The notes under the pieces: model-generated | What the model was told of the DNA's origin: nothing | What the model saw: only the letters and a program-made list of their open reading frames with translations | Database searches by the model: none | Source of the DNA: Whitmania pigra | Lineage: Eukaryota > Annelida > Clitellata > Hirudinida > Haemopidae | Direction: 5' to 3' | DNA length: 64,000 nucleotides | Assembly (NCBI GenBank): GCA_021613335.1 | Contig: JAJTWR010000236.1 | Coordinates: 1,501,001 to 1,565,000 of the forward strand | Made by a program: the position numbers and the translations under genes | Shown here: positions 3,086 through 49,600 of the stretch, piece by piece | Numbering within the stretch: position 1 is the stretch's first letter | Layout of the letters: each line of letters starts with the position of its first letter

Positions 3086-4822
3086 GTCTACCCACCCATC
3101 ATGGATGAACATGTAGGAGAGAAATCTCCAGGCCTCGTATCTCCTTCTTGGGTTATAGGTCAGGGGGCTGTACAGGGGAGCCCCGGATTTGAAGGTCGTG
3201 TTGCAGCCCTTGTGCTTCATGTCTTGCACATAGTAGATAAACATGGCCAGCTGTTTGGAACACATCAATGATGATGATGAATGATGATGATGATGATGAT
3301 GTTGTGAACAAAGGTTAGTTAGTTAGAAGGTGCTTGTTATTATTATCCTTATTGTTAAGATAACATAATTCAATAATACAATATTAATTTTAAAGAAAGT
3401 GAATTTATAATAACCACAGTGAATGTCACAACAACACTTAATTATTTATTATTATAATTATACATTCATTATTAAAGATGATTTAAAAGATTAAAGGTTG
3501 TTCTTACATCACACACCATGATCGCAAGCATAAATTCCCACGGAGATCAACAATAGGTCATCACTACTGGCATCATTACAACCATTTAGGCTGATATTAA
3601 TACTGTTAATTATTATATAATAATATTAATATAATTAATAATAATATTCTAGAATGGTCAATTATTAAACATTATATCAGTGATAAATGATGATCAAAGG
3701 TATGCTTCCAAGTAATCTGCCATTTGAAGGCATTCGGATAATTAAAAAGCAACAAAGATTAACATGCTGATAATAACAATATCCTTACAGTTGACATCAT
3801 CATCATTGCATCCAATACAAAACTTGTTATTGCCCAATGGCTTTATCTTTGAGGAAGAAATTTTATTAACCATTTATCATCATCATCATCATGACCAACA
3901 CCACAATCTTCATCACAACCATAAGCACAACCATCATCATCACCACCACCATCATGCCAACCTCAACGAGAGAGATGAGGATCATGAAGAACGGAGGAGG
4001 GCAGCAGTTGTAGTGGTCCACGTACTGCTCCACGTAATCCTCGCCCATCGAAGTCTTCCTGGCAGGTACCACCGAACTGACAGCGATTCGAAGCAATTGT
4101 CGGAAGCCTGTCAGCTGAGAGTGGTCGAGATCCCGCATCTCTTCGGATTCCATCTGATTGTGGTGATGATGATGATGATGAATAATAATAAAATGGTCAT
4201 GATGGTGGTGATGATGATGATAAAGATGGTGAAGGTGACGATAGAAGAACTGCGAAGCTGATCTTTAAAAATTAATCTGCGTAATCATGGGTAAAAGCGG
4301 ACTGAACACTGTTAATAGTTACTGATGTGGGCAATGATTAATTTTAATTAATAACTAATTTAATTAATAGTTATCATTGTCATCATAATCATAACCATCA
4401 CCAGTGCTCCTTCTTTTCCACTTAAAAAGAACATTCTCGACATGCAGTACTGCTTAGATATTATGCATAATGTTTCATATCATTTAATGAACAGCGTAAC
4501 AATTAAGATTAAAAATTTATTATCTAATTCTGGGTGGCTAATCAGAGGCTGAATCAGTTAAGCATTTTAAATATCATTTAAGAATGATGAATGAAAAACT
4601 GGAGAATATTGCAAGAGCCAAATGTCTTAATTGCTTCTGGATGCTTCACTAAGTGAGGCCAAACATTTCTGATGATCAAATTTCAATAATTACACCCTAG
4701 AGATAATGAAGTCAATAAATATATAATAATACTAACAATAATAGTAATAATAACTACAATAATATAATTAAAATATAGTTACAATAATAATGGTAACAAT
4801 AATAATAATAATAATAATAATA

Positions 4823-4862
<40 letters not shown>

Positions 4863-6319
4863 CTAGTAATACTAATTGTAAAATTAACTATTAATATTCA
4901 TTAATTTATGGAAGCTTTTTAAAGAATGTTTCATCACAGGCACATCTCTTAGCTCTTAGCTTGTTTGGGACTTGTACAGGAATCAAAGAGATGAAGGTAA
5001 TTATATACAATTACATACGACAAACGATCACTGACACGTGAAACGAATTATTATTGTAATGAGTAATTGCTTTTGTGTTTTATTAATGAAATAGTCAGTT
5101 AATTAAAGGTGTCTTAAGGAAGCACAACAGAAGCTGTGTGATTTAATTTGCAAGTAACCAAGCAAACCTTGAAACAGAACTAGTGGCTTCACTAATGCCT
5201 AAATGTGATTAATATATTATTATTATTATTATATACAAAATATTATTATAATTTTAGCTTAACCATTTCAACCTATATTTATCGCAACCTCAATCAAAAT
5301 AAATGCACATTCAAACCCTATGTTGACGAAATGACAAATGTGGAAATTCCCAAATATCAATTATAGCTGAGCAGGACATTGACATAATTCTTGACAACAT
5401 TGCAGTGTCTTGAGTCACAACTCGACTCCTTTTAAAGCATTGCTTTATGCAACAGTGATGAGATGTTGATCATAAATTAGTTACCATAATTAGTTGAATA
5501 ATAAATCGTTAATAAAATGCAATATCAGCCTCTGAGCCACAGATATGGTTAATTTTTGTTACGGCACTAAATTCTAAACTATACCAAATAATAATTAGTA
5601 AACATTTTCCAATTAGTCTCCTAAACTGGTACATAAAAATAAATGTCAGTAATTAACATGTTTATTCCTTTCCGCTTACCAGTTCCACAAACTCCTTGTA
5701 ATCAAGAATCTTGTTCTTGTCCCTGTCTGCTTTTTGCAGGGCCATTTCAATGACCCTGGGAGGCAAATCAGAGCCACCAGCTCTGGCAAGGGTGGCCTTG
5801 AGTTGGCTCAGTGGAATGCCCCCTTGCTCTGCAAACTGCAAGTCATTCATGAAATTTGAAACTCATGATATTAAACATGAATTGTCAAATTGAAATAGAC
5901 TTTATTTTTATAGTATTGTATAGTATTATATAGTATTTTTATAATATATATATATATATATTTATAGTATTGATTTTGACTAAAGATTGAAGTTTTGTTT
6001 AAATGTGCTTATGGACATCATTTACAAAGATAACAACTAACCTGGTCAAATATTGGCTTGTAATGCTGAAAAGCAAAAGTTCAGCAATTAATGATTTTAG
6101 TCGCTTATTAATTATAACGAACAATTTAATGAAGTCTCTGGAACGAATTTATAAGTCAGTCCCAAATGTTTACAAATGCAAAAAAAGCACAAGTAATGAT
6201 AAGTAATAATAGCATACATAATTCGCACAGAAGAATCTTACTCGGTCAAGATTATCCTTGAGAGGAATAGTTTCATTCCTCTCTCGCTGAGCCTTTCTTC
6301 CACCTTTGGAACTAGCCAT
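1127..6319 (-). CDS. EF-hand rhomboid intramembrane serine protease (RHBDL1/3-like)
   Basis: Nine exons with matching phases: 6242-6319, 6042-6065, 5680-5835, 3962-4153, 3096-3250, 2386-2599, 2043-2154, 1593-1676, 1127-1314 (400 aa, close to the roughly 400-440 aa of RHBDL1/3). An N-terminal canonical EF-hand loop (D71, D73, N75, D79, E82) precedes a CCPPP motif and seven membrane segments. Rhomboid hallmarks are the WR motif (RYEAWRFLSYMFIH), H-x-x-x-N in IWHILSN, the catalytic serine in GASGG (S257) and the catalytic histidine in AAHFAG (H332). The family cleaves single-pass membrane proteins, classically EGF-type ligands, within the membrane of the secretory pathway. All catalytic residues are present, so it should be active. 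Calcium control through the EF-hand is an inference. Exon 2 is only 24 nt and is the least certain exon. Confidence 0.93.
1317..1592. repeat. GAT/ATC-rich intron of the rhomboid gene
   Basis: Intron 8 reads on the sense (minus) strand as degenerate GAT/GGT units after the 5' splice site and ATC units before the 3' splice site. It creates overlapping open frames on both strands that have no family similarity. Confidence 0.85.
3016..3083. repeat. (ATC)n microsatellite in rhomboid intron 5
   Basis: Nearly uninterrupted TCA/ATC triplets. On the sense strand of the rhomboid gene this is a GAT tract beginning a few bases after the exon 5 donor (exon boundary at 3096). Confidence 0.95.
4797..4860. 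repeat. (AAT)n microsatellite in rhomboid intron 3
   Basis: About 20 AAT triplets with one ATA interruption, inside the 1.5 kb intron between the EF-hand exon and the CCPPP exon. Confidence 0.95.
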
Positions 6320-8298
6320 TTTTAGTTGATTCTATTTATCCTCTTAAAATAGCGTATATTTATCAGCGAACACACTTCGCAACTCAGAAACTAAATTTTA
6401 AGAGCTCCTAACCAAGGCTACAGAATAATAAATTGCAACGAGCCCATCGGCTTATTTATTCCATTCAACCAATAAGTTTTTTGTTTATTATTGCTTGTTA
6501 ACAAGATTCAAAAAAGTTGTTTGATTAATATTTACAGAAAAGGGACTTAATTTGTTAGGTGTATTTCCGCATATATCTATAATTTTTTTGGCATTATTAA
6601 AAAGTATTGATAGGAAGGGTAATTTTTTAATTATTATAATTGATGATTATGATAAATAAAATTGGTACAAAGTCAAAAAGTTTTAGGAAAGCCATCGATC
6701 AGCACAAACATTATTTCAAAGTTGAAGATTGAACTATTTATAGACTCCTTTTGCTTATGTCGTGCCGCCTTCAGAATTCAAAAACGACGATTTCATTTTA
6801 ATGGAAGGCAAGAATAACGGAATTTTTACTTATCCATGGGCGAGGTCTTACCTTTTAATGACATGATCTATTTGACCTATGCGATCAGAGTTCCAACATT
6901 GCTAATCTTAAGAACGAAAACGTCTATTTTGATGATTGTCTCATGTTAGTAATAAAATTACTTTTGAAACTCAATAGAAACAAAACAAATAGAGTAGTAT
7001 TTTTGTTGCATTTGGTTTAATAAAATATAAAGACAAGAATAACAATTTCTTAATATTAAAAGAAATATTTTTTCCTTAATGGAAGTTTCGGGTTTTATGG
7101 ACTTTTATGAAACCAACCTTTTAATCTATTCGTAGAAAATACTTCTGAAAACTTGACGACTGTATATTCAATTAAGTTGTCCATCATACTCTTAAGGCAG
7201 CATTATTTTCAAATTGCTTTCAGAAATGCAAATTGTAGTTACTAAAGATCTTGTTGTCTTAATATTTCTAGCACTGTACTTTGCTGTTATGGCCGCAAAC
7301 AAGTTATTTTAGTTAGTTAGCTTTAAAGTTTACTGCGTCCTAAATAGTTCTTATAAACTTTAAGTTTCAAAAATTTATTGTTTATAATTTTGGGCGTCAT
7401 TTTTTAAAAGTTATCTCGGTTAGGTGTCTCACTTCTAATTAGATGATCTTGGATCACCTTGATAAGGGATTTATGCAGCAATTTGCAACTCGAGGACAAA
7501 TAAATCCCTGGCAGTTTTAGCCTAGTTATCTAGAGCAGGTTGATGTGGAAGGTTTTGGATTAATTAATAAGGGGTAGATCATTATTCTATAATAAGGCCA
7601 ATTATTAAATCAAGGTTAGTCGGACTCACCTGATAATGAAAACAATGAAGGAATAATGAAATCAACTAGGACAACTCTATAAAATATACGAACCTGGTTG
7701 TAGGCCAGTAACTGCTATAAGTTATATATGTGTAATCTTTATTGATAATTATAAATTATATTTACAGAATAATAAAATGCATATGTATTATAAAGTTTAT
7801 ACATGTTTATTAATGATAAAAAATAATTGATCAGGTGATATAAAACGTTAAAACAAAACGTTTCATTGTTGAATTATTTCTGAAAACTAATAAGCTTGGT
7901 AAAATATAAAAAATAAAACATGCAATCATTGCAAAATTTAAATTAAAACAATTTTAGTTTAGCATATTTATTTCTGAAAATCATGTCAAACAGCCAACGA
8001 TATCAATTGAACAAAACCATAAATTAATAATGAATAAATGCTCCTTATCATTTATAATTAAAAAATTCTATGCTTTAAAATTTGAAATCGTTTCGCAGTG
8101 GATGTAAAATGGCCTCAGATGCGACAAAATAGTATTTGAATGGCTGGATTTTCCAAAGCAAATAAGATGGGTATGCTTAACATTCATCACAAAATAGAGG
8201 CCCTTAGTTAGACACAATATAATGCAAATTTTATAATAATAAAAAACAAAAAGTTACGAGCTTACATTATCATGAAGTATTTATGACAATTATAATTG
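6320..8298. other. Intergenic, rhomboid 5' flank to GST1 3' flank
   Basis: About 2 kb of AT-rich sequence with frames broken in all six readings and no recognisable exon, tRNA or long repeat. It must hold the rhomboid promoter (right of 6319) and the 3' end of the first GST gene, but I see no specific element I can defend. Confidence 0.6.
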
Positions 8299-21074: not shown

Positions 21075-24000
21075 ATGCATTTTTCAACATTTCGCCTCTG
21101 CGCCATCCTCATCTTCAAGACAATCATTCTCTCCCCATTCGTTACCAGCAAACTCGAAGTTATGAATCAGATCGCGATTGGGGCAACTCTTCCCCAGGAT
21201 ATCTATCAGAGTTGGATGTCCTACTACGGGTCTAGCCGCTTTGGTTACGTGGATATCAGACCGAAGTACAATGCCAGAGGGAGCAAGGCTGGTCAGACAG
21301 CCATGGTTCAAACTTTGGGCTACGGAACTCCACAACAGAGTCCATTTCTTGTGGAAAGCCTTTTGCCCGACTTTGGTACTTCTGAGATACCCTTCACCGC
21401 TAAAGAAGCTTCGAACTACACGGACCTCGCTACTTTTCCAGTTCTTGCTGGGTGAGTAAATGGCGCCATTTCTTGTGCTCTTAGGGAAATGTTTAACTCA
21501 ATAAAACAAAAACAAAAAAAAAAGTAAAATCTGTAATATATTATTAGTCATGATGAACATTAAATTGAGCAACAAAAAAATAATTGAACACACCACTAAC
21601 TGAAAAAATAAAATAATTAAGAAATAAAAATTCTCAACAAAAAGAAACACTGCACCGTTCTCATTTTCGAATCTCCTTAAAGGAATTTAGTGCTGGCATA
21701 CAACGTTCCGGAGGTGGAAAACCTGGTACTGACTCTCGATCATGTGGTTGGAATCTACAACGGCACTTTCAAATTCTGGAACGATTCCACGTTCGCTATT
21801 CTGAACGAAAAGGAAACTTTTCCAAACGCTTCCATCAAACCAGTTGCTAGATATTTCCCTTCAGGATCGACCTACATCTTCACAAGAGCATTATCTATCT
21901 ACAGCAGTGCTTTTAACAAAGCTTATAGTTTTTTCGACAATCGTTTTGGGTGGCAGGGGTCTTCTGACTTTGAATTTGGCCAGTCGTCATCAGGAATGGT
22001 GGACACCATATTCAATCTACCCTACAGCATCGGATACGTGCCTGTGTGGTTAGCTGAAACGTCTCAGATAAGGTTGGAAAGTTATTTATTTAAATGTCCG
22101 GGCTTTGAATGTTAACAATCTAGTAATTGAATTCGTTAATTCTTATAAAAGATCATTTTTCTGAGCAAAAGCCATGTGTTATTTTGGTTTGAACTTATTA
22201 CTTCAAGGTTATTATTCAGAGTTGAGAGAGTGAAGTAAACTCTTTGTAAACATTAATCTTAATAATGCGCTTTCAAAGCAAGGCAGGATAGCTGATAACT
22301 ATATTAATATTTAATTAATTAATTATTAATGCCCTCAAGGTACGCGAGTATCGTCAATAGAAAGGGGGAGATTGTTAGCCCGAAGTCAATAAAACATATT
22401 TCGAATTCTGTGCAAGAAAACAAACTGAAACTTCTGTCTTCTAAATATTTCAACTCCGACTTGGCCGAAAGTTCTGAATCGAATTACCCCATAGCTGGAT
22501 ATTCGTACATGATTGTCAAACTCAATTCAATAGCCTCCTGCTCAGAGGCCATAGAGCTGACGAGGTAAATTGGTCAATTTATCGAGCAAATACATAAATT
22601 CGCTTTTAGAAAATTTATCAATTAAGATTAAATCGTTAAAAATAAATATTAAATACTCTATCAACCGTTTAGAAATGAATTTACCCAGGTTTATAAAGTG
22701 GATATCGAATGATCCAGACGCTAATTCTTTGGCACGTTCTTTCTATATGGTAAGCGTCGGTTCTGGCCTGATGGATGAAATCAACACTCGCGTCCTCAAA
22801 CGAATGACCTGTGGTAAAAAACAAGTCGAAGACCTCTTGAATCAACAGATCAGAGAAGAAGAAGAAATGAAGAAAACATGGAAAACTCCACTGGGAATTG
22901 CCACTCCATATGTCTGCTCATCGCAGCTGGAGTTGGTTTCGGCATATGGAGGCAAAAGAAGAAGTACTTGGAGATGATTGACAAAAACGAGTGGAACATA
23001 AACGCCTTTGAAATCGAGATTAACATTGAGAAAAACATCGGAGCCAAATTTTCCCCCAGTCAGGTCAACGCAAGCTTGGATGGTTTCAGGCCGGCTGTTC
23101 CACCACAGAACACTTCGAAATTTAAGTGCGCCCAGAAAATGTTCACTGCCAACGGAAGTTTAATTGGGAAATACAACGAGATCAAAATGTGCTTCACGCC
23201 CATGTGGCTTGAGGGCTACTTTGACACGAACATCAAAGTCAGACTGGCTCTTACTAAAATGAAAAGCTCCATCGACCACACGAATCTGCTTAGATTTTAT
23301 GGCCTAACCTGGATGAACGATAGACTGTATTTGGCCGAGGAACACGGAGAAAAAGGACTCTTGATCGATGTACTGAGACATTCCAAGTTTGAACTCAGTA
23401 ACGACTTTAGGTATGAAACTTTCTTAAAATAGGCTGTGATCGTACAATTAAAGAATTAGTCAACCATGAATAATTTAGTTGTCCAATTAATTTTATTTTA
23501 TTAGTTATTTGTTAATAATGTGTAAGCATTTTAAAATGAGTTTCCTTGTAAATTACCAGATACGCCATAACCAGGGACATAGCATCCGGCATGTCCTATC
23601 TTCATCGCAAAGACATCGTACATGGCTTTCTGACGACAGATTCATGTGTGGTTGATTCGAGATGGTCGGTCAAAGTGAGATGTTGGGGTTACAACCTCAT
23701 CAATCAGACCAACAAACAGGCTGGCAGAAGCAAGACAAACCTCAACATCTATGACATTCGGAGGCAGCAACTCAATGAAGCCGATCAGAAACAGTTTGAG
23801 TTCTGGATGCCACCTGAAGCCAAGATGGCCAGAGAAAAAGACTTCAATCCGACCAAAGCATGCGATTCATTCTGTTTTGGTCTCGTCATGTTTAAGATAT
23901 TCACCACCATTTCTTTGAGGGCTGTTATGCGCCAACCCCAAGCAAACTCAAACCGTCTTCCTCTAACTGATGATGGGAATCAAGGCAGCTTTGATGATAA

Positions 24001-25431
24001 AACTCAAATACTCGTAGCCCGTTTGACAAAGGAAGACGGGGTGAAAAGTCTCCCCAACAAAGTGAAGGTGATAATTGGACAGGCTTGTGTCGAAGATCCC
24101 AACCAAAGGCCATCTTTTGAGAAACTGTCGGTGATGTTGATGGCAGCTCACAATTCCAAGTACATGAGCACTCTGGACAATATTATCGAATCATTGGAGT
24201 TCTACGGAAGCGAAATTGAAACAAAAATGGAGGATCTTGGTAGAAGATTGAGAAAAACTCTTGATGAAAAAGACAATATTATGTCGCAAAGGATTCCAAC
24301 TTGGGCAATGAGCCAGGTAAATTGCTCGATCATTAACCATTGTACTTGAAAGATGAATATTATTTGTTAAGTAATTATTTTGTATCACCTTGCATTTTCT
24401 ACTAAAGATAAGGATGGGAAAGGATATGGACTGCAAAATGTGCAAAAATTTAGCAGTAATTGCTATAGAAATCGATCTATCCCACATCGAATCTGCTATC
24501 ATACCGTCTCCAGAGATTGAAGTCAACAGCGACGCTCGACAAAAATTCCAAGAAAAGAAAATCATTTTCTGTCTTGAAAGTTTCAATTCAGCAGTAGAGG
24601 AATTGGTTGATGAAAATTCGTGGCTCTTCAATGTCGAACAGACTTCCAACTGCGTTCTGTTCGTAGCTGGATTTAATGGGTTTTCCTTTGCCCAGAACAT
24701 CGGCAAGCTTATCGAACTCTTGTGGACCTGGGTGACTCCAATAAAAAAAAATTGTCTGGAGGTGATTTTTGGTCACAATTACTCAAATCAGGTTTGGTAG
24801 CTTGGTGCAGGTTAATTCAGATGTAATTCGATTTATGATGCACCATCAGTAGATTTTAACTAATAATAAATATTCAAGTTTTACTCGGGATGTAATAATT
24901 ATGCTTAATTGTATTATGAAAAATTCCAAATCTGAATGTTTATGCTTGACTTTAGGATCACATTCCAATTCCTATGTTCACCGTCACTCTCCACGGTGGA
25001 TCGGCTTTGTTCGGTCTCAGCAAACAGTCAGGGAATCAAGGCAACATGAAGTTCTTCTCTTACGGGGAAGTCATTAAAACGACTCGAAGACTAAACGCGT
25101 CTAGACGTCTACAAGCAGGAACAGACTGTGATCGAATTCTCAGCACCGATGTCATCGTTAAAAATCTTCCGATGTCTCTGAAAAACTTCAAAATCACTCC
25201 AGCAAAAATCTATTGCGAAGTATGTTGTTTCGGAGCAATATTTTTAATAGAATAAAATAATTGGCTCATCGATTAAATGAACTTGTGCGACAAACGAGGT
25301 TTATTGTAACTCAACGATTTATAGTTTTTTAAATTCTATTTTAATTTCAGATTTCTGCTGAAATGCCATTGTACTGGATAGATAAAGAGATTGAAATAAA
25401 ACATGCCAAGATCCCCGATGTCGTCTGTTGA
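21075..25431 (+). CDS. Receptor-guanylyl-cyclase-like protein with PstS-like ectodomain and degenerate cyclase
   Basis: Exons 21075-21451, 21683-22072, 22340-22564, 22689-22749, 22854-23410, 23560-24316, 24408-24791, 24956-25219 and 25351-25431 give about 1031 aa. A signal peptide (1 to about 24) precedes a bacterial-type phosphate-binding fold: IGATLPQDIYQSW, DFGTSE, FPVLAGNLVLAYNVPEV, PSGSTYIFT and YASIVNRKG. Then come one membrane segment (ICLLIAAGVGFGIW), a kinase-homology domain (SYLHRKDIVHGFL, CVVDSRW) and a cyclase-homology domain. In the last, the two metal-binding aspartates are E (about 810) and N (about 870), and the usual Cys and Asn of the RYCLFGDTVNTASR region are Phe and Lys. 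It is probably a catalytically dead receptor. The junction at 22750-22853 and the exon 6 donor are uncertain. Confidence 0.85.
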
Positions 25432-26092: not shown

Positions 26093-29000
26093 CTAAATGC
26101 GGAAGCTTTCCCTCTTCCCTTCGATGTGTCCGAGCCTCAGAAATGTGTCTGTTCCGAAGCCTTCCATTGATTCTACCTCGATGTTTCCTCCGAGGCATCT
26201 CGCATAAGTCCGACACACCGGCAGGCCAAACTGCAGTCTGCAATGGTTTTTGAATCGGTCAATAAATTCTAATAAGTAGATTCTCGAGTCATCGTCATCA
26301 TCATTCATCCAATCGTAATAACAGATCCGATCTAAGCGTCCAAGTCAGAATTCTCACTCGTCTGCCAGATATCCGCCCTCCTCTTCACACAGAGTGTGGT
26401 GCTGCTGTTTGGAAAGATCGAACTCCCACAACTTATCCAGTTCGGCATGGTGAAGCCCTCTTCCTCGATCGCTCACCCTGCAACCCAAGGACGACGCGAT
26501 GATAGCAATAAGTACATTAAAATCTTTCTCACAGATTGTTTGTACCACAATGAGCCAGTAATAGATTACAGGTGATATAAGAAATAACAGAAGTCAAGGT
26601 GAATTTATCAAATAAATTTCCATCCTTAAGGTAAATTCACATGTAAATAGCATTTTCAATGCAGAATGCACGTACTTGATGATAAAGTCTAAATCATTAT
26701 TGGAGATGGTAATTTGTACAGGGGGCATGGGCAGGCTAGAAGTGGTTTTATGGTTCTCGACCGTGGCCCTGCAAAATAAAAAGCAGTACCACTGACTGAA
26801 AATGCCTGTAGACCGAAGACAACCTTCTATTACTGACACGGCCGCTCTGTACAGCAGTTCCTGAACGATGTTTCCGAAAGGTTGCGGAATGAAGGCGAAC
26901 TTCGCGTCGAGGTGTCCAGAAATGGAGAAGTAAGGACAAGTGCCGTGCTGTTCTTCGCATGCGGTTCTGTTCATCGAACGAAGAAAATTTTATTTTGTCA
27001 GCAAGTAGTTCGGTCAAGGAGATAGTGGTATTTGCAGAATTATTTGTTTTCACCATTATTATTATTATTAAAATCATCATTTATTACCATTACTATCATT
27101 ATCGTCATCACCTCACGCTTTCAATCTTCTTCTCGATGATGAGCTTTGGACTGAAGTTGACAGCTATGATGCCGATGATTTCGGGCTAAAATTAGAACAT
27201 CATATGCAAATTGGCAGTTTTAAAGGACTGAATAAGTTTTTGTCGATCCCATTCGTGGAGAATTTTGTAAATGTTGAAAACAGAAGATTGATAACGCTTC
27301 GTTATTGTGGTGATGATGCATGGCAGAACAGTACCTTATGTCAAATTTGTTCATTTTCCACGATAGGTTACGCAAGACAAACGACAAAACATTTTAACTC
27401 GAACACTTGGTTGAAATACAAGATGAATTAGAATGGCTTAGAATGCAATAGTCAAATATTAAAAAGAAAGATAAAAAGTATTTACATTCTCTTTCTGTAG
27501 AGCAATGTGGTGCTTGCAGAGTAGCTCAGTGGCAATCCTCGAGTTCAATGCCCTGTCCAGGAACTTTCTGATGGCCTCGTCACTCTGTAACACAATTGCT
27601 ATCACCTCATCTTGTGTCTTTATCAAGATGTTCTTATTAGATTTATCATGTAATATTAAATGATGTTTTATATTTTCCATGTGTCAAATTCTAATGTTGC
27701 AAACAACTCAAGAAATATGTTGCTGAGGTCATTCATGGCTACTGGACTTATTACTGCTCGAAATAAAGACATTTCATAGGCTCGTGCGACAACTCTGCAT
27801 TCAAATGATCAACCACTCACAAGATCAATTTGCTTGCTGTCTGCTCCAATAATATCATGACATGGTAACGAATAAATTAAATAACAAGTTAATTTAAACT
27901 AGATTTAAGAGAATAGCCATTAAATGGATCAATGCCATGGTTCTCTCTCTCTCTCTAATTTAACTATTTAATTAACTATTTAATTTAGGCATTAGTTTAA
28001 TAATTATGTATTATGCCATGGATGCCTAAGCATGGTTCTCTCTCTCTAATTTAACTATTTAATTTAGGCATTAGTTTAATAATTATGTATTATGCCATGG
28101 ATGCCTAAGCATGGTTCTCTCTCTCTAATTTAACTATTTAATTAACTATTTAATTTAGGCATTAGTTTAATAATTATGTATTATTACTACAGACCATACT
28201 TTTTATCTTAATTATTTATCTTTCCATACTTTGTTCTCTTACTCATTATCTTATTCTTCATAACCTGTTACTATGCTAACCAAAGCACTATTCGTAACTG
28301 ACACACCCACCTTAAAGTATCTAATTTCCTTTAACCCTTTACACAGCAAGGCGATGTCATTCTTGTGCTCATCCAAAAACTGTCTGAGGATGCCACAGTA
28401 CTCCAGCTCTGACTTCAGATCTGTTATCTGTCGAGGTCAGACAGCAACCTAGTCAGTAGTCAATGACTTCATGCCATTTCCAAATTACGAGATGTCTAGT
28501 CAACTAAAGATGTTAAATGACAGTTATTAATGATGACGAAATAAGCTATTTCTATTAAACTACAATAATAACCAATAATAAATAAATATTGAAATAACAG
28601 TTCTGTAGAAATCACTAACTTTACTTTTTAATAACATCATAATCTTGACAATCTCTTTAACATTAAGTAGGAAAACCAAAATCTATGGATATATGAACAA
28701 GTATCAACCTTAGAAACTTCATTGAGTCTGTAGAAACTCTTTAGGTAGAGTTTGTGCTGGTTTCAAATGAAAGCATAATGTTTATTAACAGGAATTCGAG
28801 TGATTACTTAAGAATTTGATGTGATCTAATAGGCCTTTATTTTAAAACCAGGAAATAAACGTACCTTATCAGGAAATCAATAAAGTCGGTGTATTTTCGT
28901 AATTGTTAGGGATTACGAAATTCTCTTGGATAACAGATAACAATATAATTGAGCTGGTTAAAAGTCAACAAAACCCACCACTTCGAGAATCATTGGATGA

Positions 29001-30176: not shown

Positions 30177-31778
30177 TTAATCAGACTTCAAAATTTTCAG
30201 TGAGAAATCAATGGCATCGTATCCCTGGGTAGTTCGACTGAGGGAGATGACGTCGATATCTTTCCCAACAAATTGGAGGATGTTGCTCTCGTTGATGCCT
30301 CCACTTGCCTCTATTGTCAGTGATGGATATTGCTTCTTAATGCTTGAGGCGGTCTCGTGCAGCAGCTTTTAAAAGTAATCATAACATGATGTAATAGGTA
30401 ACGACAACATTAACATTAAGTGTGGATATTGAAAAATGCTTGTGATATTATTAGTTGTTAATTAAAACCATTTCTCTACTTCAACGGAATTCTGACAACT
30501 GTTTAAAATCAATCGTTTTGCCAAATTATAAAAAAATAAATATTTAATAAACATCTGCAACCATGTTAGTGAAATCTCTATTGGAATAAAACAGAACATT
30601 AAAGATCTAGTAGAGTTCAAGGCACGTAGAAAATAAATCTAGAGCTTCTCGAGGTCATTTCCAAGGAAGTTCAAACCTGAGGAATAAAGTTGTCGAGCAT
30701 GACGATGTCGCAGCCCGCCTCAGCTGCTTCGAGTCCTTCCTCGAGTGACCTGCACTCAACCTCTATTTTCAGGCTGAAGCCCCCAACAGACCTGGCATCT
30801 TTTACCACCTGGAGGATTTAAAAGTACAATCTTGAAGTAATTTTCAGAAATTTTGTGGATTAACATGGATAATTAATTAATTAATTAATATAGATATGAC
30901 ATATTTTTATGGTTCTGCTATTCATAGTCAATGAATAAGCTTATATAATTGAAGAACAAAATGATCTTTAGCTAATATTATTTTCTAAAAGGAAGCTAGT
31001 ATGATATCCCAATCATTAATAAAATTCAACAATTTTATACAATTCAATTAAATAGAATTTAATATAATAGAAACAGTAGTTATATTATTTTATCATACAA
31101 AATCCATATGTAAGTTGTTCAATTACCTGTGTGATGCTTCCTGCAGACCAAATGTGATTGTCCTTGAGCATGATCATGGAGGAGAGGTCGTATCGATGAG
31201 TTGCAAGCCCTCCAACCAGAAGGGCATATTTCTCAACAATCCTGAACCCTGGAGTGGTTTTTCTTGTTCCAGCAATTTCGCCATGCCAGGGAGCTCCAGT
31301 TTCTTCGATTACATGATTTGAAACCAATTTGTTTAGTTTCCTTCCATAGGTTGCTATCCCACTGGCACGAGTCACACAATTCAATGCTATCCTTTCTCCC
31401 AGTAAAATATTCCTCACTCTGCCTGTTACAGTTGCCACCTTTGTGTATGGCTGCAAATCATCTCCTTCTTGGGCCTAAGACATGAACGACGTTAAAATAC
31501 AGATGTTAGATTACCCAATAATTTAAAAGTGATATGATACTCACGTGCCAGTCTATGGTGCAATCTAACGTTTTGAAAACTTCTTCGAAGAAAGGAAGGC
31601 CGGCAAGCACGCCTTCACCTTTGCACAACAAGAACGCCTTCTCGACCTTCTCTCCGACCACAAATCCACCATAATCAAAGTTCGGTGTGTCCTCCTTGAG
31701 CCATTCATTTACAGTTTCTCTCAAACGAATAGGATGCAACAAATGACTTAGATTCAGATTCTGCCTGCGAGAATCCAT
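30177..31778 (-). CDS. QPRT: Quinolinate phosphoribosyltransferase (nicotinate-nucleotide pyrophosphorylase)
   Basis: Four exons, 31545-31778, 31127-31474, 30677-30808 and 30177-30365, give 300 aa (human 297). The enzyme makes nicotinate mononucleotide from quinolinate and PRPP with loss of CO2, the entry step from the kynurenine pathway into NAD. Signature motifs are present: [41 protein letters not shown] and MLDNF, then TIEASGGI in the C-terminal barrel strand. These carry the substrate-binding Arg/Lys/His and acidic residues of the family, so it should be active. Phase 0 introns throughout. The start [10 protein letters not shown] fits the family N-terminus. Confidence 0.97.
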
Positions 31779-36027: not shown

Positions 36028-39000
36028 CCAGTACACATGAGTTCCATTCGTTAATTATTCATTATTCTTCACCATTATCATGCATAGCAGTCTTTTATCG
36101 TCGCTTGTCGTAGAAGCCATGACAATGACGATCATTATCATTTAATATCTGAAGCAATATTTAATAACTTGACGGAATTAAAACTTAATGACTCAAAGTA
36201 TTAATCATCGTTCAACGAATTGTGTATCATTATCATAATTCACCTCCAGTCGACTCAGGCGGAGCCTACCTCCCCCTACAGGACGACGTCTTCCCTGACA
36301 AATTCCACTTCGGTCGAATCTTCTACAACCAGGCTCGCATGTCCTCCACGGGCATCTCTCAGATCGCCGTGGTGATGGGGAGTTGCACGGCCGGGGGGGC
36401 CTACGTGCCCTCCATGGCAGACGAGAGCGTCATCGTTCGGAGGCAGGGTACGGTCTTCCTGGCTGGACCTCCTCTGGTGAGCGTTGTTGAAGTTTCGATG
36501 ACGTTTAATGTTATCGTAATAATGGTTATTTGGTCAGTGAGGATTATTATTTTAAATGGCTAGCATTGTTGAACTAATTTGTTCGATTTCAAACCCTGCA
36601 CAGGTAAAGGCAGCCACAGGGGAAGAGGTGTCGGCCGAGGATTTGGGAGGAGCGGACCTACATTGCAGGTAAGTAATGGAATGTGATTGGATAATTAATC
36701 ATGTTACTAAGCCAATGAATGTCAAATGAATTGACCGTTATTAGAGATGATTTAATGAGGGACAAACGTAGCTTAATGAGAGTTTCCGGTTGGATTATAG
36801 CATAGTTGTAGATACATCATCATCATCGTCGTCGTCGTCATCATCATTATCGTCATCATCATTATCATCATCATCAGTTGATGTGATGAGGATTTGAGGG
36901 TAAATTCAGTGCTTGACCTTTCAATTCTTTACCTGTACAACATCAGGAGGTCAGGTGTGACTGATTACTACGCCCTCGATGATGAGCATGCTCTACACCT
37001 GGCCAGAAGGTGTGTCAAGAATTTGAATCATCATAAGCCTCAGGTGAGGGTAACACATCTGATTGGATGAGCTGAGATGATTGCAAATATGTATAGAAAG
37101 TTTATGTGGAGATGTTGAGTCTAGCCACTGATTAAATAAAGTTATTATGGCTATAATGATATAATAATGATGATGATAATAATAATAATAACAACAATGA
37201 TTATGATAATAATAACAGTTATATTAAATAGTAACTATTTGTTTGACGGTTAACAATTATAACTAATAACACAGGTTACCTGTTATGAACCTGTTGACCC
37301 CTTGTTTGACCCTGAGGAAATCTATGGTATTGTAGGAGGAAACCTGAAGAGGCCTTATGATGTCAGAGAGGTATGGAGGAGCTCGAATAATTTAGTCTGA
37401 TTTTATAATTTGCCTGCTCCAATTAATTAGGCTAATATACCTAATTGATTATTCATGTTGCCGTTCGACAGGTCATTGCGAGGATTGTGGACGGGAGCGA
37501 GTTCGACGAATTCAAGGCTCTTTATGGGGAAACTCTTGTCACAGGTTGGTCGGGGGATGACTCGGTTTCATTTGTTTTACGCAACGTGATTGGAGGATTC
37601 CATTGAATATTATTGATTTATTTCCAACTAATCCTCCTATTGGTCGGGCTTACAGCCCCCAATCAGATTGCAATTATTTTTGGATCACGTTAAACATATC
37701 ATTAATTCATATTTTGCATGAAAATGATGTACTCAATCACGTGATGCGTCGTTTGTCGTTGCAGGGTTTGCTCGAATTTGGGGATACCCAGTCGGCATCT
37801 TGGCCAACAACGGTGTTCTCTTCTCCGAATCTGCCCTCAAGGTAATCAGACTGGTGGTCATTCGATTTAGATTTGCTTGTTCTGAATGTGAAATTAATGT
37901 TAAAATGAATTCTGTATTGTAGGATTGTTTATCTTGTGATGATCATGTGATGAGGGATGTGGAGATCACTGTTACACATGTCAATTATAGTAATGATAGA
38001 AACATGATGATGATGATGACGCCGACGGTGGTGGTGGTGATGGTGGTAATGGTGATGATGGTAATGGTGATGGTGGTAATGGTGATGATGGTAATGGTCA
38101 AGTTTGAAGTTTTAAATAAATCGCAGGGGGCACATTTTGTTCAACTGTGCAGTCAACGAGGCATTCCTCTGCTCTTCCTCCAAAACATTACAGGTGACGT
38201 CATCATCATCGTCATCATAATCATCAATAAAAAATAAAAATGTTCAAATCAATTGATGTCAAAAATATCAATTCTATTATTCGAGTTTTGCATTAATTAT
38301 TAATTAGAAGCTTAATTATTTATTCGAAGGTTTCATGATCGGCAAAGAGGCAGAAGCCGGAGGCATAGCGAAGGACGGTGCAAAGATGGTGACCGCTGTA
38401 TCCTGTTCCAACGTCCCCAAGATCTCGGTCCTAATCGGTGGTTCGTACGGGGCCGGTAACTACGGCATGTGCGGGAGGGCCTTTGGGTTAGTGCTTCATC
38501 AAGAATGATTTTTTACGTTCACGAATAGGACTATGATAATGTCAATGCTACTTACTTCTCCAAATAGTTAACGAGTTGCCATTTACTTGGTATTATTACT
38601 TAATCTCAATTTGTTAACATTTGCAGTCCTCGCTTCATGTACATGTGGCCAAACAGTAGGATGTCCGTCATGGGGGGCGAACAGGCCGCCAATGTCTTGG
38701 CAACCGTTGCCAAGGACCAGCGAAAACGACAAGGAAAGGAGGTGAGTGAGTCAGCACAGCCAGCTGGAAGTGCATGAGAACATAGTTTGTCAATTAATTT
38801 TATTTATTCTATAAAAATAGTTTTATTATCTGAAAATAATATTATTAACCAAAATGATTTAATTTTCATTGCAAAAGTTAAGTGAAGAGGAGGAGAAAGG
38901 AATCAGGGAACCAATCCTGGAAAAGTACGAGAGGGAGGGTCATCCGTACTATGCCGGAGCTAGGTGGGTTCATTGATGTCTTTGCCACCGTTGTTGTTAT

Positions 39001-44300: not shown

Positions 44301-46397
44301 CAAGGACATGAACAGTGGAACCAGAATACTTGGGTGCTATCTTTACGGCTGTGTGCGTTCTGTCAATTGTTAATAAGGAATAATTAATGCATAATTAATA
44401 TTAATAATTGGTTATTAAACAATTAAATTAATAATAATTACAACATATATCAATACTGCAATACTATCTTATTATCACAAAATTATTAAATTTATCTCTT
44501 CATAAATGCTGATTATTATGCAAATCTAAAAATAAATTATGATAATGACTTTGAAGTTGTAGCTCCACCAATGAGGAGAGGAATCTTGACATTCCTTCTT
44601 TCAAGCTCCTTGGCAACGTGGATCATTTCGTCCAATGAGGGAGTGATCAGTCCGGACAGGCCGATGAAATCTGAGGGTTTAAAAATAATTATGTTAACTA
44701 AATATGTTATAAAATAATTTTACAAAAAAAAGTACAAGATAAATTCAAATTGCAATGTGCAATGCAAAATTAATTGCAAGTAAAATCTGACCGACATAAC
44801 AACAACAACAACAACAACACAACAAATGACCATATCAATAAACAAGCCTCGATAAAAATTGTTATGGTTTTAATTTGTCAAACAATAATAAATTAAACAT
44901 CACCAACCTGCATTCTCACTCAGGGCAGTTTCGATGATCTTCTCACAGGGGGTCATCACCCCGAGGTCGACCACCCTGTAGTTGTTGCAGCCGAGGACCA
45001 CCGAAACGATGTTCTTGCCGATGTCGTGGACGTCCCCCTTCACCGTCGCTATGACGACCGTGCCAACATAAGCACCTTTCTGGAACGACGATCACGATAG
45101 AGAGATGCTTTGATTATGATACTGTTTGTCAACATCACTCATTTCGAATCATAGCATTCATCGTGTCCTACACATCCATTAGAACATGCTGTCATCATCA
45201 TCATCATAATCATCATCCACTCACCAAGTCATCGATACCAGTCTCCTCGATGTTCTTGAGCCTCTCGACCTCCATAAATGGAATGAGGTAACCAACTGCC
45301 TTCTTCATCACCCTCGCGGACTTGATGACCTGCGGCAGGAACATTTTGCCGGATCCGAAAAGGTCGCCGACGATGCTCATGCCCTGTGGTCGGTGATGAT
45401 GATGATGATTATGGTAATGGTTATTATTATTATTATTATTAATATTGCTTTATATGTGCATACGAGTATAGTACATAACCATAGTTGTTGTGAGCAGAAT
45501 GATTCGTTATTAATATTATTAATTTATTGTACCTATTGTACATTGTCACCCCTTTGGGTTTATTTGAATTTATTTGCTTCTTCTGAATAAATATATAACA
45601 GCTTGTTTGTTTGTTCGATTCAATAAACTCATAAACCAAAAAAAAATTGTGCATAAAAAATTACAAAAAAATGTTAACTATTATATTATAGTTGTTAATT
45701 ATCTGATTACTTATCATATGTACTATCTCTTACATAAATTATGTAATTACTTATCATATGCACTATCTCTTACATAAATTAAATGAATACAACCCAATGA
45801 AGACAGGTGAGCAAGACTAACCTTCATGAGTGGTCCCTCGATGATGTTCAATGGCCTCGGATACTTCAACTTGTCTTGTCGAGCCACCTCCATGTCGTCG
45901 ACGATGTACTTGTCGATGCCCTGCATAGTGATGATGATGATGACAACATTGCAATGATGATTGTGATAACCAACACCAACAACTGGTGATGGCATTAACA
46001 ATATTGGAGATGATGATGATAATGATAACATTGGTGATGCCAAGAAGACATCACTATTACCATCATCAACATCATCATCAATATAACAGTCATCATCATC
46101 ATTTCCACTCACCCGAACGAGTGCATGTTCGATTCTTTCCTCCACACTCAGCGACCTCCATTCCTCATCAATGACTTGCTTCTTGTCTTTACTTCCAAGA
46201 CCCTGTGACAACAATAATCAATTAATATTGGTTAATAAATAAATTAATATTTAAGCTGGAGTCAATAATTAAATCAAGCAAAAATAATATCTGTCATTAT
46301 TGTGCTGTTATGTATTAACATAGTCATGACATATCCACTCACTCTTATTGAATATGGAAATGTAAATTTCTTTATAATAATATTAATGATAACATTA

Positions 46398-46428
<31 letters not shown>

Positions 46429-46660
46429 CAATAACAATAGCAATGATAATCGTCATCATCACCTGTGCATAGACGAGCAGCCTTTCGGTGGCTTCCGGCG
46501 ACTTGTTCCAAAGGATGTCTTCGCAAAGGTCGAGGAGTTCCTTGTTGAAGTCGCCGTACAAAGGCAGGTTTCCTGCATTCACAATGCCCATGTCCATGCC
46601 TGACTGCAATATCGGTGAGAAGAACTGTCTTTGTAGATCACCATCACCAATGCGACTGCT

Positions 46661-46694
<34 letters not shown>

Positions 46695-49600
46695 CCAACA
46701 CCACTATCGTCATCATCACCGTCAACATTATCATCAGCATTACCACCACCATCATCAACGAGGATTGGACGGATACCTTGATGGCGTGGTAGAGGAAGAC
46801 ACTGTGCATGGCCTCTCTGATCCTTTCCTTGCCTCGGAATGCGAACGACAGGTTGGAAACTCCACCGCTTATCCTGCAGCCTCGATTTTTTTCCTGTAAA
46901 TCATTATCATCATCATCATCATCACCATCATTATCATCATCACCATTACTGCCGTAACCATCACCATCAGCGTCAAATGCCATGATTGATAACACATTCA
47001 TCTTCTCTGAAACTTTTACAGTCATCATCACCATCACCATCACCATCATAATGACCTTGATGAGCTTGGTAGCCCTGATGAAGTTGATGCCGTATTCGTT
47101 GTGCTCCTCCATGCCCGTCCCGATGGTGAGAATGTTGGGGTCGAAGATGATGTCCGTCGGGTTGAAGCCCACCCGATCGACGAGGATGCGGAACGAACGG
47201 GTGCAGATCTCGACCTTCCTCTCCACCTCTGTTGCCTGGTGTTGCAATTATGATGATAGTTGTTGTTGTATTAGGTTATGGAATATATATAATATATTAT
47301 TATTATTATTATTATTAATATATACGATATATTGAATAACATATTATGATGATAGTTGTTGTTGTGTTGAATTGTGAAATGTATAATGCATTATGTTATG
47401 ATGTTAGTTGTTTAGTATTTTGAAATATATTATGTACGATGTATTATGTTAAGAAAAATATTTTCAAATTGAAGTTAGAACATTTTGTGTCTTGTAGATT
47501 GCTTTGTAACTTTCAATAAATTCTAATGATAACAACAACTTTGGGGCGTGCAGGTTAGCCGAATGGGTTATGTGCCTGCATACGGCAGTAATGGCAACAG
47601 TCGTAATGTGTCGTGTTCAAAACCCAGCCTGCACTGCCGCAAGCGCCCTTGGGAAGGAGCGCTATATAAATGGTTACAAGAAGCGCCTCTGATGCTATGC
47701 ATATGGCGCTATATAAATGAAGTTACAATTACAATTACAATTACTTTCAATTTCATGACAACAAACATACATCGCCGGCCAATAACAACCTCTCTCACAA
47801 AATCCACGGCCAATCGAAACGAAGATTAAAACAGCTCACCTGACCAATCTCGTCGAAGGCCATGACGACCACGGCAGCTCCGAACCTCTTGATGAGTTTG
47901 GCTTTCCCTACAAAGTCCTCCTCGCCTTCCTTGAGGCTGATGCTGTTGACGATGCACTTGCCCTGAGTGCATTTGAGGCCGGACAGGATGGTCTCGAAGT
48001 TCGACGAATCTATGCACAGAGGTACCTGGTGAGGGTTGTTGTTGGATGAATAATTGATTGGTTGATTGATTTTTTTGTAACTTGTTAAAATAATAATAAT
48101 AATAATGATGATGGTGCTTGTTAACTACGATATTAATAAGATACTTGTTGCCCTGTTACAATGCATAGTCTATTACAACAAACTGACACAGGACAAAGCG
48201 ATGCTTAACGAAAGCAGAACCCAACATAAGACCGATCAACTCATCTCCACCATTTTTCATAAAAAATAGATAAAAAAATAAAAAAACATTATTATAGAAT
48301 CAATGAAAAGAAGACATATTAATTTAATAATAATATTTATTTGAATAATAAATTTAATACAAATTAAATTTTAAACATTATAAACCAAACCAAAACTACG
48401 ACAACAAACATCCGCCGATCTCACCTTTCCGATGTCAGGCTCAGACGAGATGAGGTTCACAAACTTCGACATGGCAGCCTTCCCGTCCAACATTCCTTCG
48501 TCCATGTTCAAATCCAAGACCACTGCTCCATTCTCGACCTGGGTCTTGGCCACGCTCAGTGCCTCCTAGTTACGATTGGTTGGCATAAATTTTAATAAAG
48601 TTAATGAATAATAATAATAATAATAATTAATGATTAGTAATCATCATCATCATCATCATCTCACATCAAACTTGTTGTCCTTGATGAGTTTACAGAAGGC
48701 CCTCGAGCCAGCCACATTGCACCTCTCCCCGATGTTCACAAAGTTTGTGTACGAGTCGATCCTCAGTGGCTCCAGGCCTGCAGCGGGTGGGAATATGATA
48801 ATTATCAATTGTAATTATTCATAATTATAATTAGTCGCAACAATGTGTAATTTAAATATGATAATTATTTATTTTTTAGGATGTTTTTTAACATTCAAAA
48901 CAGGAGATGACCTTTGATTAAAAATGAAATAATGGATGATTAATTATTCATGACATTATCACCTGACAACAACAGCGACTCATCGTGCAGGGATTTTGGT
49001 GGAACTCTCGGCGAAATGTGTTTGACGGCCTCCGCAATGGCCCTGCAAAGAATTAAAGATAATTCATGAATACTGATGATCAAAATTATAATTCTGATGA
49101 ATATTCATGATAATTATAACGAGTGGCTACCTTATGTGAGGTGGAGTCGTTCCACAGCAACCTCCGACAATGTTCACGAGTCCATCATTTGCAAAGGACT
49201 GGTGAGACGAATTAATTAATTATTTAAAGCATTCTTCAAATCATAACATCAAATAATTTCATTAAACATTATTATATATAATTTAATATCAGCACAAGCT
49301 AAAATTCATAAATAATATTATCCAGAACATTCTACAACAACACTGTCCCATTAATGGTTTAACAACAACCTGCAACATCCTTCCCGTGTATTCAGGCAGC
49401 TCGTCGTATTCGCCAAAAGTATTGGGAAGACCTAGAGGTGGAAAGGAATTCTTACGAGTTCATTTACATGTCCTGCTTAATGAATACGACATGTCATTAT
49501 AATATTATTATTAATAATCTTTAACCATGTGCAATGATTGGTCTCACTGCTGGGCAGATGTTATTTTAAATATTGAAGAATTTAATGAACGAAAACTGAT

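Follow-up and report, generated by a model that had tools for sequence, protein, structure and literature searches.

A gene of the leech Whitmania pigra encodes a predicted receptor in which a bacterial-type phosphate-binding protein, PstS, is joined to the intracellular half of a receptor guanylyl cyclase whose catalytic domain is degenerate. The gene lies on the + strand at positions 21075-25431 of a 64,000-nucleotide stretch (the window; contig JAJTWR010000236.1 of assembly GCA_021613335.1, positions 1,501,001 to 1,565,000). It has eight exons separated by seven introns, all of them GT-AG, and its stop codon ends at 25431. The predicted product of approximately 1,065 residues consists, in order, of a signal peptide (hydropathy peak at residues 5-23), a PstS-type ectodomain, one predicted membrane helix, a kinase-homology domain and a degenerate cyclase. 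Judging by the aligned residues, the receptor probably detects phosphate or a related ion and makes no cyclic GMP (cGMP) of its own. Since the binding, membrane and dimer parts are kept, residues needed to make cGMP are lost and canonical cyclase motifs occur elsewhere in the genome, our favoured reading is that of a pseudoenzyme receptor, which would bind extracellular phosphate or a related oxyanion and modulate an active cyclase as its partner within the cell. We infer the ligand, the partner and the effect, and regard this reading as evenly balanced. Its chief rivals are that the kinase-homology domain acts as a scaffold with a vestigial tail and that the ligand has changed.

The PstS-type ectodomain and its ligand site

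A reading made from the letters of the DNA (the sequence-only reading) had assigned the ectodomain to the PstS family, subject to a significant profile match, and the assignment holds. The spliced ectodomain matches Pfam PBP_like_2 (PF12849) with 48.9 bits, above the curated cut-off of 27, and it matches 17 distinct solved PstS sequences in the PDB (best E = 1.5e-20). The reading frame of exon 2 taken by itself (21681-22115) reaches 21.1 bits with PF12849 (E=3e-4), which is below the cut-off, and 66.7 bits with the NCBIfam PstS model TIGR00975 (E = 1.8e-18), whose full-length cut-off is 205. N-glycosylation sequons number 1.63 per 100 residues in the eukaryotic ectodomains versus 0.40 in 118 free PstS-type proteins; as expected, the higher density fits secreted parts.

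The phosphate contacts of PstS, in Escherichia coli numbering, are Thr10, Ser38, Asp56, Arg135, Ser139, Gly140 and Thr141. When aligned to E. coli PstS, the window ectodomain keeps Thr10, Ser38, Arg135, Ser139 and Gly140 and has Glu for Asp56 and Ser for Thr141. Across 32 eukaryotic ectodomain rows (two are the tandem repeats of Chromosphaera, and the rows are not independent, several perhaps coming from one species and part of them having been found through this region), the clamp arginine Arg135 is kept in all 32, Ser139 and Gly140 in 30 each, and Asp137 in 22. Position 56 is legible in nine eukaryotic rows, of which four have Asp, four have Glu (window, Helobdella, octopus and argonaut) and one has Asn; P0134 (E) and P0135 (K) were excluded at this position because their letters come from unrelated leader stretches.

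The sequence-only reading proposed a phosphate or anion sensor, or a decoy that dimerises with active cyclases, a role that stays putative given two residues of the window ectodomain, namely the Glu at position 56 and the Phe that replaces the nearby Asp137. The ectodomain may have ceased to bind phosphate and now bind another oxyanion or an unrelated ligand, a prospect that is doubtful yet substantial. The window and Helobdella share Glu for Asp56, Phe for Asp137 and Pro for Gly138, and Helobdella also has Ala for Ser139, whereas Arg135 and Gly140 are retained in both and Thr10 and Ser38 in the window. Furthermore, E. coli PstS mutants with Asn for Asp56 and with Asn, Gly or Thr for Asp137 have been solved with phosphate, according to their PDB titles, and a paralogue on contig C5 of the same genome retains both Asp56 and Asp137.

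The intracellular half and its degenerate cyclase

The sequence-only reading gave the intracellular half a receptor-cyclase architecture, and profiles, PDB matches, the orthologue from the leech Helobdella (P0153) and relatives with one frame across the junction of PstS, membrane helix and kinase domain all back it. The spliced kinase-homology domain matches PF07714 with 75.7 bits (cut-off 23.1), and its best sequence matches in the PDB are guanylyl cyclase C (GC-C; 8.5e-17) and natriuretic peptide receptor 1 (NPR1; 4.2e-16). Second, weaker stretches of the PDB matches cover the signalling helix that precedes the cyclase (0.066 for GC-C and 0.0026 for NPR1), and the predicted model of P0153 has a helix at 775-815, in the place of the signalling helix. 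The predicted single membrane helix ahead of the kinase-homology domain is marked by a hydropathy peak in P0002, a 252-residue protein on two contigs of another assembly. P0153 also carries a long Thr- and Asn-rich stretch at approximately 395-450, at the start of its kinase-homology domain, which is absent from the window gene.

In the genomic reading, exon 4 carries portions of both halves of the receptor and joins the end of PstS to the membrane helix and the kinase-homology domain; thus the PstS part is not a soluble or lipid-anchored subunit of a Pst transporter. The assembly does contain bacterial-looking contigs with PstS-type genes of their own, as would be the case if the fusion were an artefact of bacterial contamination or misassembly. 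That explanation is refuted by other genomes, in which the same fusion occurs in named species of several phyla, and it also conflicts with the introns in the PstS part and with the reach of exon 4, so that it can be set aside with near certainty.

The tail of the protein has no match to any Pfam cyclase model at E <= 1, PF00211 included, and P0153 has none to PF00211 at E <= 0.01. The cyclase call therefore rests on relatives, position and predicted fold. The tail occupies the place of the cyclase in the receptor order and aligns with relatives that do score, such as octopus P0151 (PF00211, 39.9 bits). In hhalign comparisons, for which the rows were aligned anew with MAFFT, four pseudocyclases jointly match four family cyclases with E = 5.6e-6, window plus leech with 0.0097 and the window tail alone with 0.19. 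In the structure predicted for P0153, residues 833-1043 show the order of strands and helices of a class III cyclase. An AlphaFold2 model of 24408-24791 alone has a predicted local distance difference test (pLDDT) score of 76.3, and the first 18 rows of its Foldseek search are all nucleotide cyclases, with a best E of only 0.067.

Seven catalytic or substrate positions were compared with the intact family member P0155 from the tardigrade Hypsibius. Five are changed in the window tail and two are kept. Four of the changes had been predicted and are seen in this comparison (Glu and Asn in place of the first and second metal Asp, Phe for the guanine Cys and Lys for the catalytic Asn); the fifth is the Asp of FGD, which is Glu, and the guanine Glu and catalytic Arg are retained. 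The first metal position is less sure than the other changes, as the alignment is uncertain there and an Asp lies two residues downstream. Of the 14 family tails that were aligned, three retain Asp at the first metal position, six have Glu (window, octopus, argonaut, oyster, P0135 and P0137) and five have some other residue.

Active relatives with the same ectodomain, which the sequence-only reading had suggested looking for, were found in part. P0155 may be active, being the only one of the 14 tails with all seven residues, but part of the cyclase is missing from within its gene model, perhaps through a mispredicted exon. P0136 and P0139 are truncated sequences that cover three positions each, and P0136 has all three. 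In every named lophotrochozoan tail examined by residue alignment (octopus, argonaut, oyster and Helobdella), the cyclase is decayed.

The second PstS receptor of the same genome, on contig C5 (L033), has three exons (3688-3992, 4287-4572 and 4916-6640) and 771 residues. It keeps the PstS domain, the juxtamembrane motif and the kinase-homology domain, shortly beyond which its frame stops. Canonical cyclase motifs are carried by loci L002, L004 and L007. The matches listed by a protein search of the genome for PstS are the window gene, C5 and C360; the scan with PF12849, made exon by exon, missed the window gene itself, so more diverged paralogues may exist. The PstS matches on C360 (L035) and C105 (L036) adjoin pst transporter genes and those on C47 (L037) and C270 (L038) have bacterial-looking surroundings, and all four contigs were set aside as bacterial. 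One of the bacterial-looking contigs in the assembly measures 2.9 Mb.

The C5 paralogue bears on a different account of the tail, in which signalling would depend solely on the kinase-homology domain, acting as a scaffold, with the cyclase tail left as a weakly constrained vestige. None of the 93 cyclase matches in the genome falls on C5, and the inner half of the window protein matches C5 only over its residues 14-380; the same scan missed the window's own tail, however, so a degenerate tail may lie downstream on C5 as well. The tail is the fastest-changing domain between the window and Helobdella, at 31% identity versus 50% for PstS and 39-44% for the kinase domain. Nevertheless, both leech tails are open as well as degenerate and share the identical blocks DENSWLF, QTS, AGFNG and QN.GK, and octopus, argonaut and oyster still carry degenerate tails. 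A kinase-domain scaffold is an unlikely account, if one to be taken seriously.

Gene integrity, orthologue and family

The frame had been described as open across all eight coding exons, which needs correction for exon 4, where one base breaks it (Table 1); it is open everywhere else. P0002 spans exon 4 and reads straight through the break. The two sequences are identical at 78 of 78 residues before it and at 171 of 172 after it, the sole difference being a residue read from the intron (read-through). Because P0002 is intact and nearly identical across exon 4, the break is more likely an assembly error or an allele than a fixed lesion, as far as these sequences can tell. A micro-intron in place of the break was considered and rejected, as the candidate GT-AG pairs that restore the frame all lose either the juxtamembrane TWK stretch or the membrane helix of the P0002 type.

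The break and the degenerate catalytic residues of the tail are what a decaying pseudogene might display. Such decay is improbable given the intact P0002 of the other assembly, the open state of the remaining exons with their seven GT-AG introns, and an open Helobdella orthologue that is similar in every domain. This orthologue (HELRODRAFT_194445) has 45% identity to the window protein over 691 columns and groups with it with a tree support of 100/100. Identities by domain are 151/305 for PstS, 53/135 and 87/197 for the kinase lobes and 68/217 for the cyclase tail.

The receptor belongs to an old family. A single chain of the window gene combines PF12849, the TWK motif next to the membrane, the membrane helix and the kinase-homology domain, and so fits a family of receptors with PstS ectodomains. 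A search with the alignment of the window protein, P0001 and C5 returned 31 proteins, 23 of which have PF12849 and a kinase domain, six of these 23 also having PF00211. A full-length alignment search (best 120 of 178 proteins) added at least five more with both domains, from octopus, argonaut, Helobdella, Chromosphaera and Hypsibius; PF00211 is present in all but one of these five. In all, at least 28 proteins have PstS and kinase domains, at least 10 of them with a Pfam cyclase. Named carriers are octopus, argonaut, oyster, leech, tardigrade and the ichthyosporean Chromosphaera; for P0154 the last name is taken from the code Nk52, which PMC6981761 confirms. Saccostrea P0140 has PF12849, the kinase domain and PF00211 together. 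Lamellibrachia P0143 has a partial PstS and a membrane helix, and its PstS domain passes TIGR00975 (208.1 versus 205).

A tree built from 25 of the 31 rows of the family unites the window protein, Helobdella, C5 and nine other proteins in a clade of 12 (support 100/99) and does not resolve the deeper branch order between phyla. A quick tree of 44 PstS-domain rows places 17 of the 32 animal and ichthyosporean rows, together with both rows in which PstS is fused to a G protein-coupled receptor, on one branch (Shimodaira-Hasegawa-like approximate likelihood ratio test 94, computed without bootstrap). This branch adjoins bacterial rows of the P0003, P0011 and P0022 kind, picked from the matches of this query itself, with P0022 being named Anaerolineales. 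Since these eukaryotic PstS rows share one branch beside bacterial rows, the ectodomain was probably captured once from a bacterial PstS, on the evidence of this tree.

Two members of the wider set are organized differently. P0154 (Chromosphaera perkinsii, 1378 aa) has two tandem PstS domains, each with Asp56-Arg135-Ser139-Gly140-Thr141; in its cyclase the two metal Asp residues are retained and the catalytic Asn and Arg are not. P0147 (Jimgerdemannia flammicorona) and P0168 have PstS fused to class C seven-helix receptors and lie on the branch with the animal PstS ectodomains.

Table 1. Exons of the window gene and the frame break, with the basis of each assignment
Feature	Coordinates	Strand	Basis
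Exon 1: start codon, hydrophobic signal peptide, start of PstS domain (GATLP, GSKAG, TSE)	21075..21451	+	Spliced model, GT donor; contacts aligned to E. coli PstS
Exon 2: PstS core with clamp R-Y-F-P-S-G-S	21683..22072	+	PF12849 and TIGR00975 matches
Exon 3: second lobe of PstS	22340..22564	+	Spliced ectodomain, PF12849 48.9 bits; PDB PstS alignment
Exon 4: end of PstS, juxtamembrane part, predicted transmembrane helix, start of kinase-homology domain	22689..23410	+	Translation; P0002 is a single open frame here
One-base frame break inside the membrane helix	22909..22913	+	Window versus P0002; no fitting GT-AG intron
Exon 5: C-lobe of kinase-homology domain and signalling (dimerisation) helix	23560..24316	+	PF07714 52.7 bits (cut-off 23.1); weaker PDB stretches
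Exon 6: first half of degenerate cyclase (Glu for first metal Asp, Asn for second; guanine Glu retained)	24408..24791	+	Alignments; AlphaFold2 model
Exon 7: second half of degenerate cyclase (Phe for Cys, Glu for Asp, Lys for Asn; Arg retained)	24956..25219	+	Alignment; open frame
Exon 8: C-terminal end and stop	25351..25431	+	AG acceptor, in-frame stop

Elsewhere in the window, a frame at 26093-26344 (-) looks by eye like the ATPase motif of a pyruvate or branched-chain dehydrogenase kinase. Three exon-like frames are similar, also by eye, to nicotinate-nucleotide pyrophosphorylase (31088-31474, -), methylcrotonoyl-CoA carboxylase beta (36192-36560, +) and methionine synthase (45750-47247, -).

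Proposed working and comparison with known receptors

As a pseudoenzyme that modulates a partner, the receptor would close its ectodomain on an oxyanion held between two lobes, as bacterial PstS does. Within a dimer, closure would be relayed across the membrane helix to the kinase-homology domain and on to the signalling helix, as in receptor guanylyl cyclases. PMC1592074 describes the helix before the cyclase of receptor cyclases as making the dimer, and its deletion as leaving inactive monomers. The dead cyclase half would still fold and pair with the cyclase half of an active receptor, and could thereby lower or tune cGMP.

To our knowledge, how animal cells sense extracellular phosphate is an open question. 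The family provides candidate phosphate receptors in tractable animals (octopus, leech and tardigrade), and since the bacterial counterpart of the ligand site has been described at the atomic level, binding is open to direct test. The family also presents a receptor ectodomain for which a bacterial transporter protein is the apparent origin, together with a receptor cyclase whose degenerate catalytic domain has been kept in annelids and molluscs. Animals and their unicellular relatives may own a class of undescribed extracellular phosphate receptors, which arose by one capture of a bacterial PstS on a receptor cyclase chassis and which make cGMP in tardigrades and are re-tuned, dead-enzyme anion receptors in leeches and molluscs; we hold this broader view to be slightly short of even. 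No published description of receptor cyclases with a PstS ectodomain was found in a literature search that covered few subscription journals and no bioRxiv preprints.

The same architecture (PF12849 plus kinase, with PF00211 in four of five) occurs in five database entries: GC-E-like (Octopus vulgaris), gcy-5-like (Argonauta hians), guanylate cyclase 2G-like (Saccostrea cucullata), Guanylate cyclase 2G (Hypsibius exemplaris) and HELRODRAFT_194445 (Helobdella robusta). The Hypsibius entry keeps the seven catalytic residues and the other four do not. None of the five names gives a sign of the PstS ectodomain, and names such as GC-E-like and 2G-like conceal it. The class C seven-helix receptors P0147 and P0168 are also cases of PstS captured by a eukaryotic receptor, with PF00003 replacing the kinase-homology and cyclase domains. 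In contrast to bacterial PstS, the substrate-binding protein of the phosphate ATP-binding cassette (ABC) transporter, the window protein is fused to a membrane helix and signalling domains, its gene has introns, and it has sequons and changes at Asp56 and Asp137.

Natriuretic peptide receptor C (the clearance receptor) is a peptide-binding member of the cyclase receptor family that has no cyclase output and lacks the kinase-homology and cyclase domains. The window protein resembles it in its predicted lack of cyclase output but keeps the kinase-homology domain and a domain in the cyclase position. The usual ectodomain of receptor guanylyl cyclases is of the ANF-receptor type. With NPR1 and GC-C, the window protein shares the order of ectodomain, single helix, kinase-homology domain, signalling helix and cyclase-position domain; it differs from them in its PstS ectodomain (PF12849) and in a cyclase changed at five of the seven residues tested. 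The receptor cyclase plan is already known, and the PstS ectodomain and the retained dead cyclase are its new parts.

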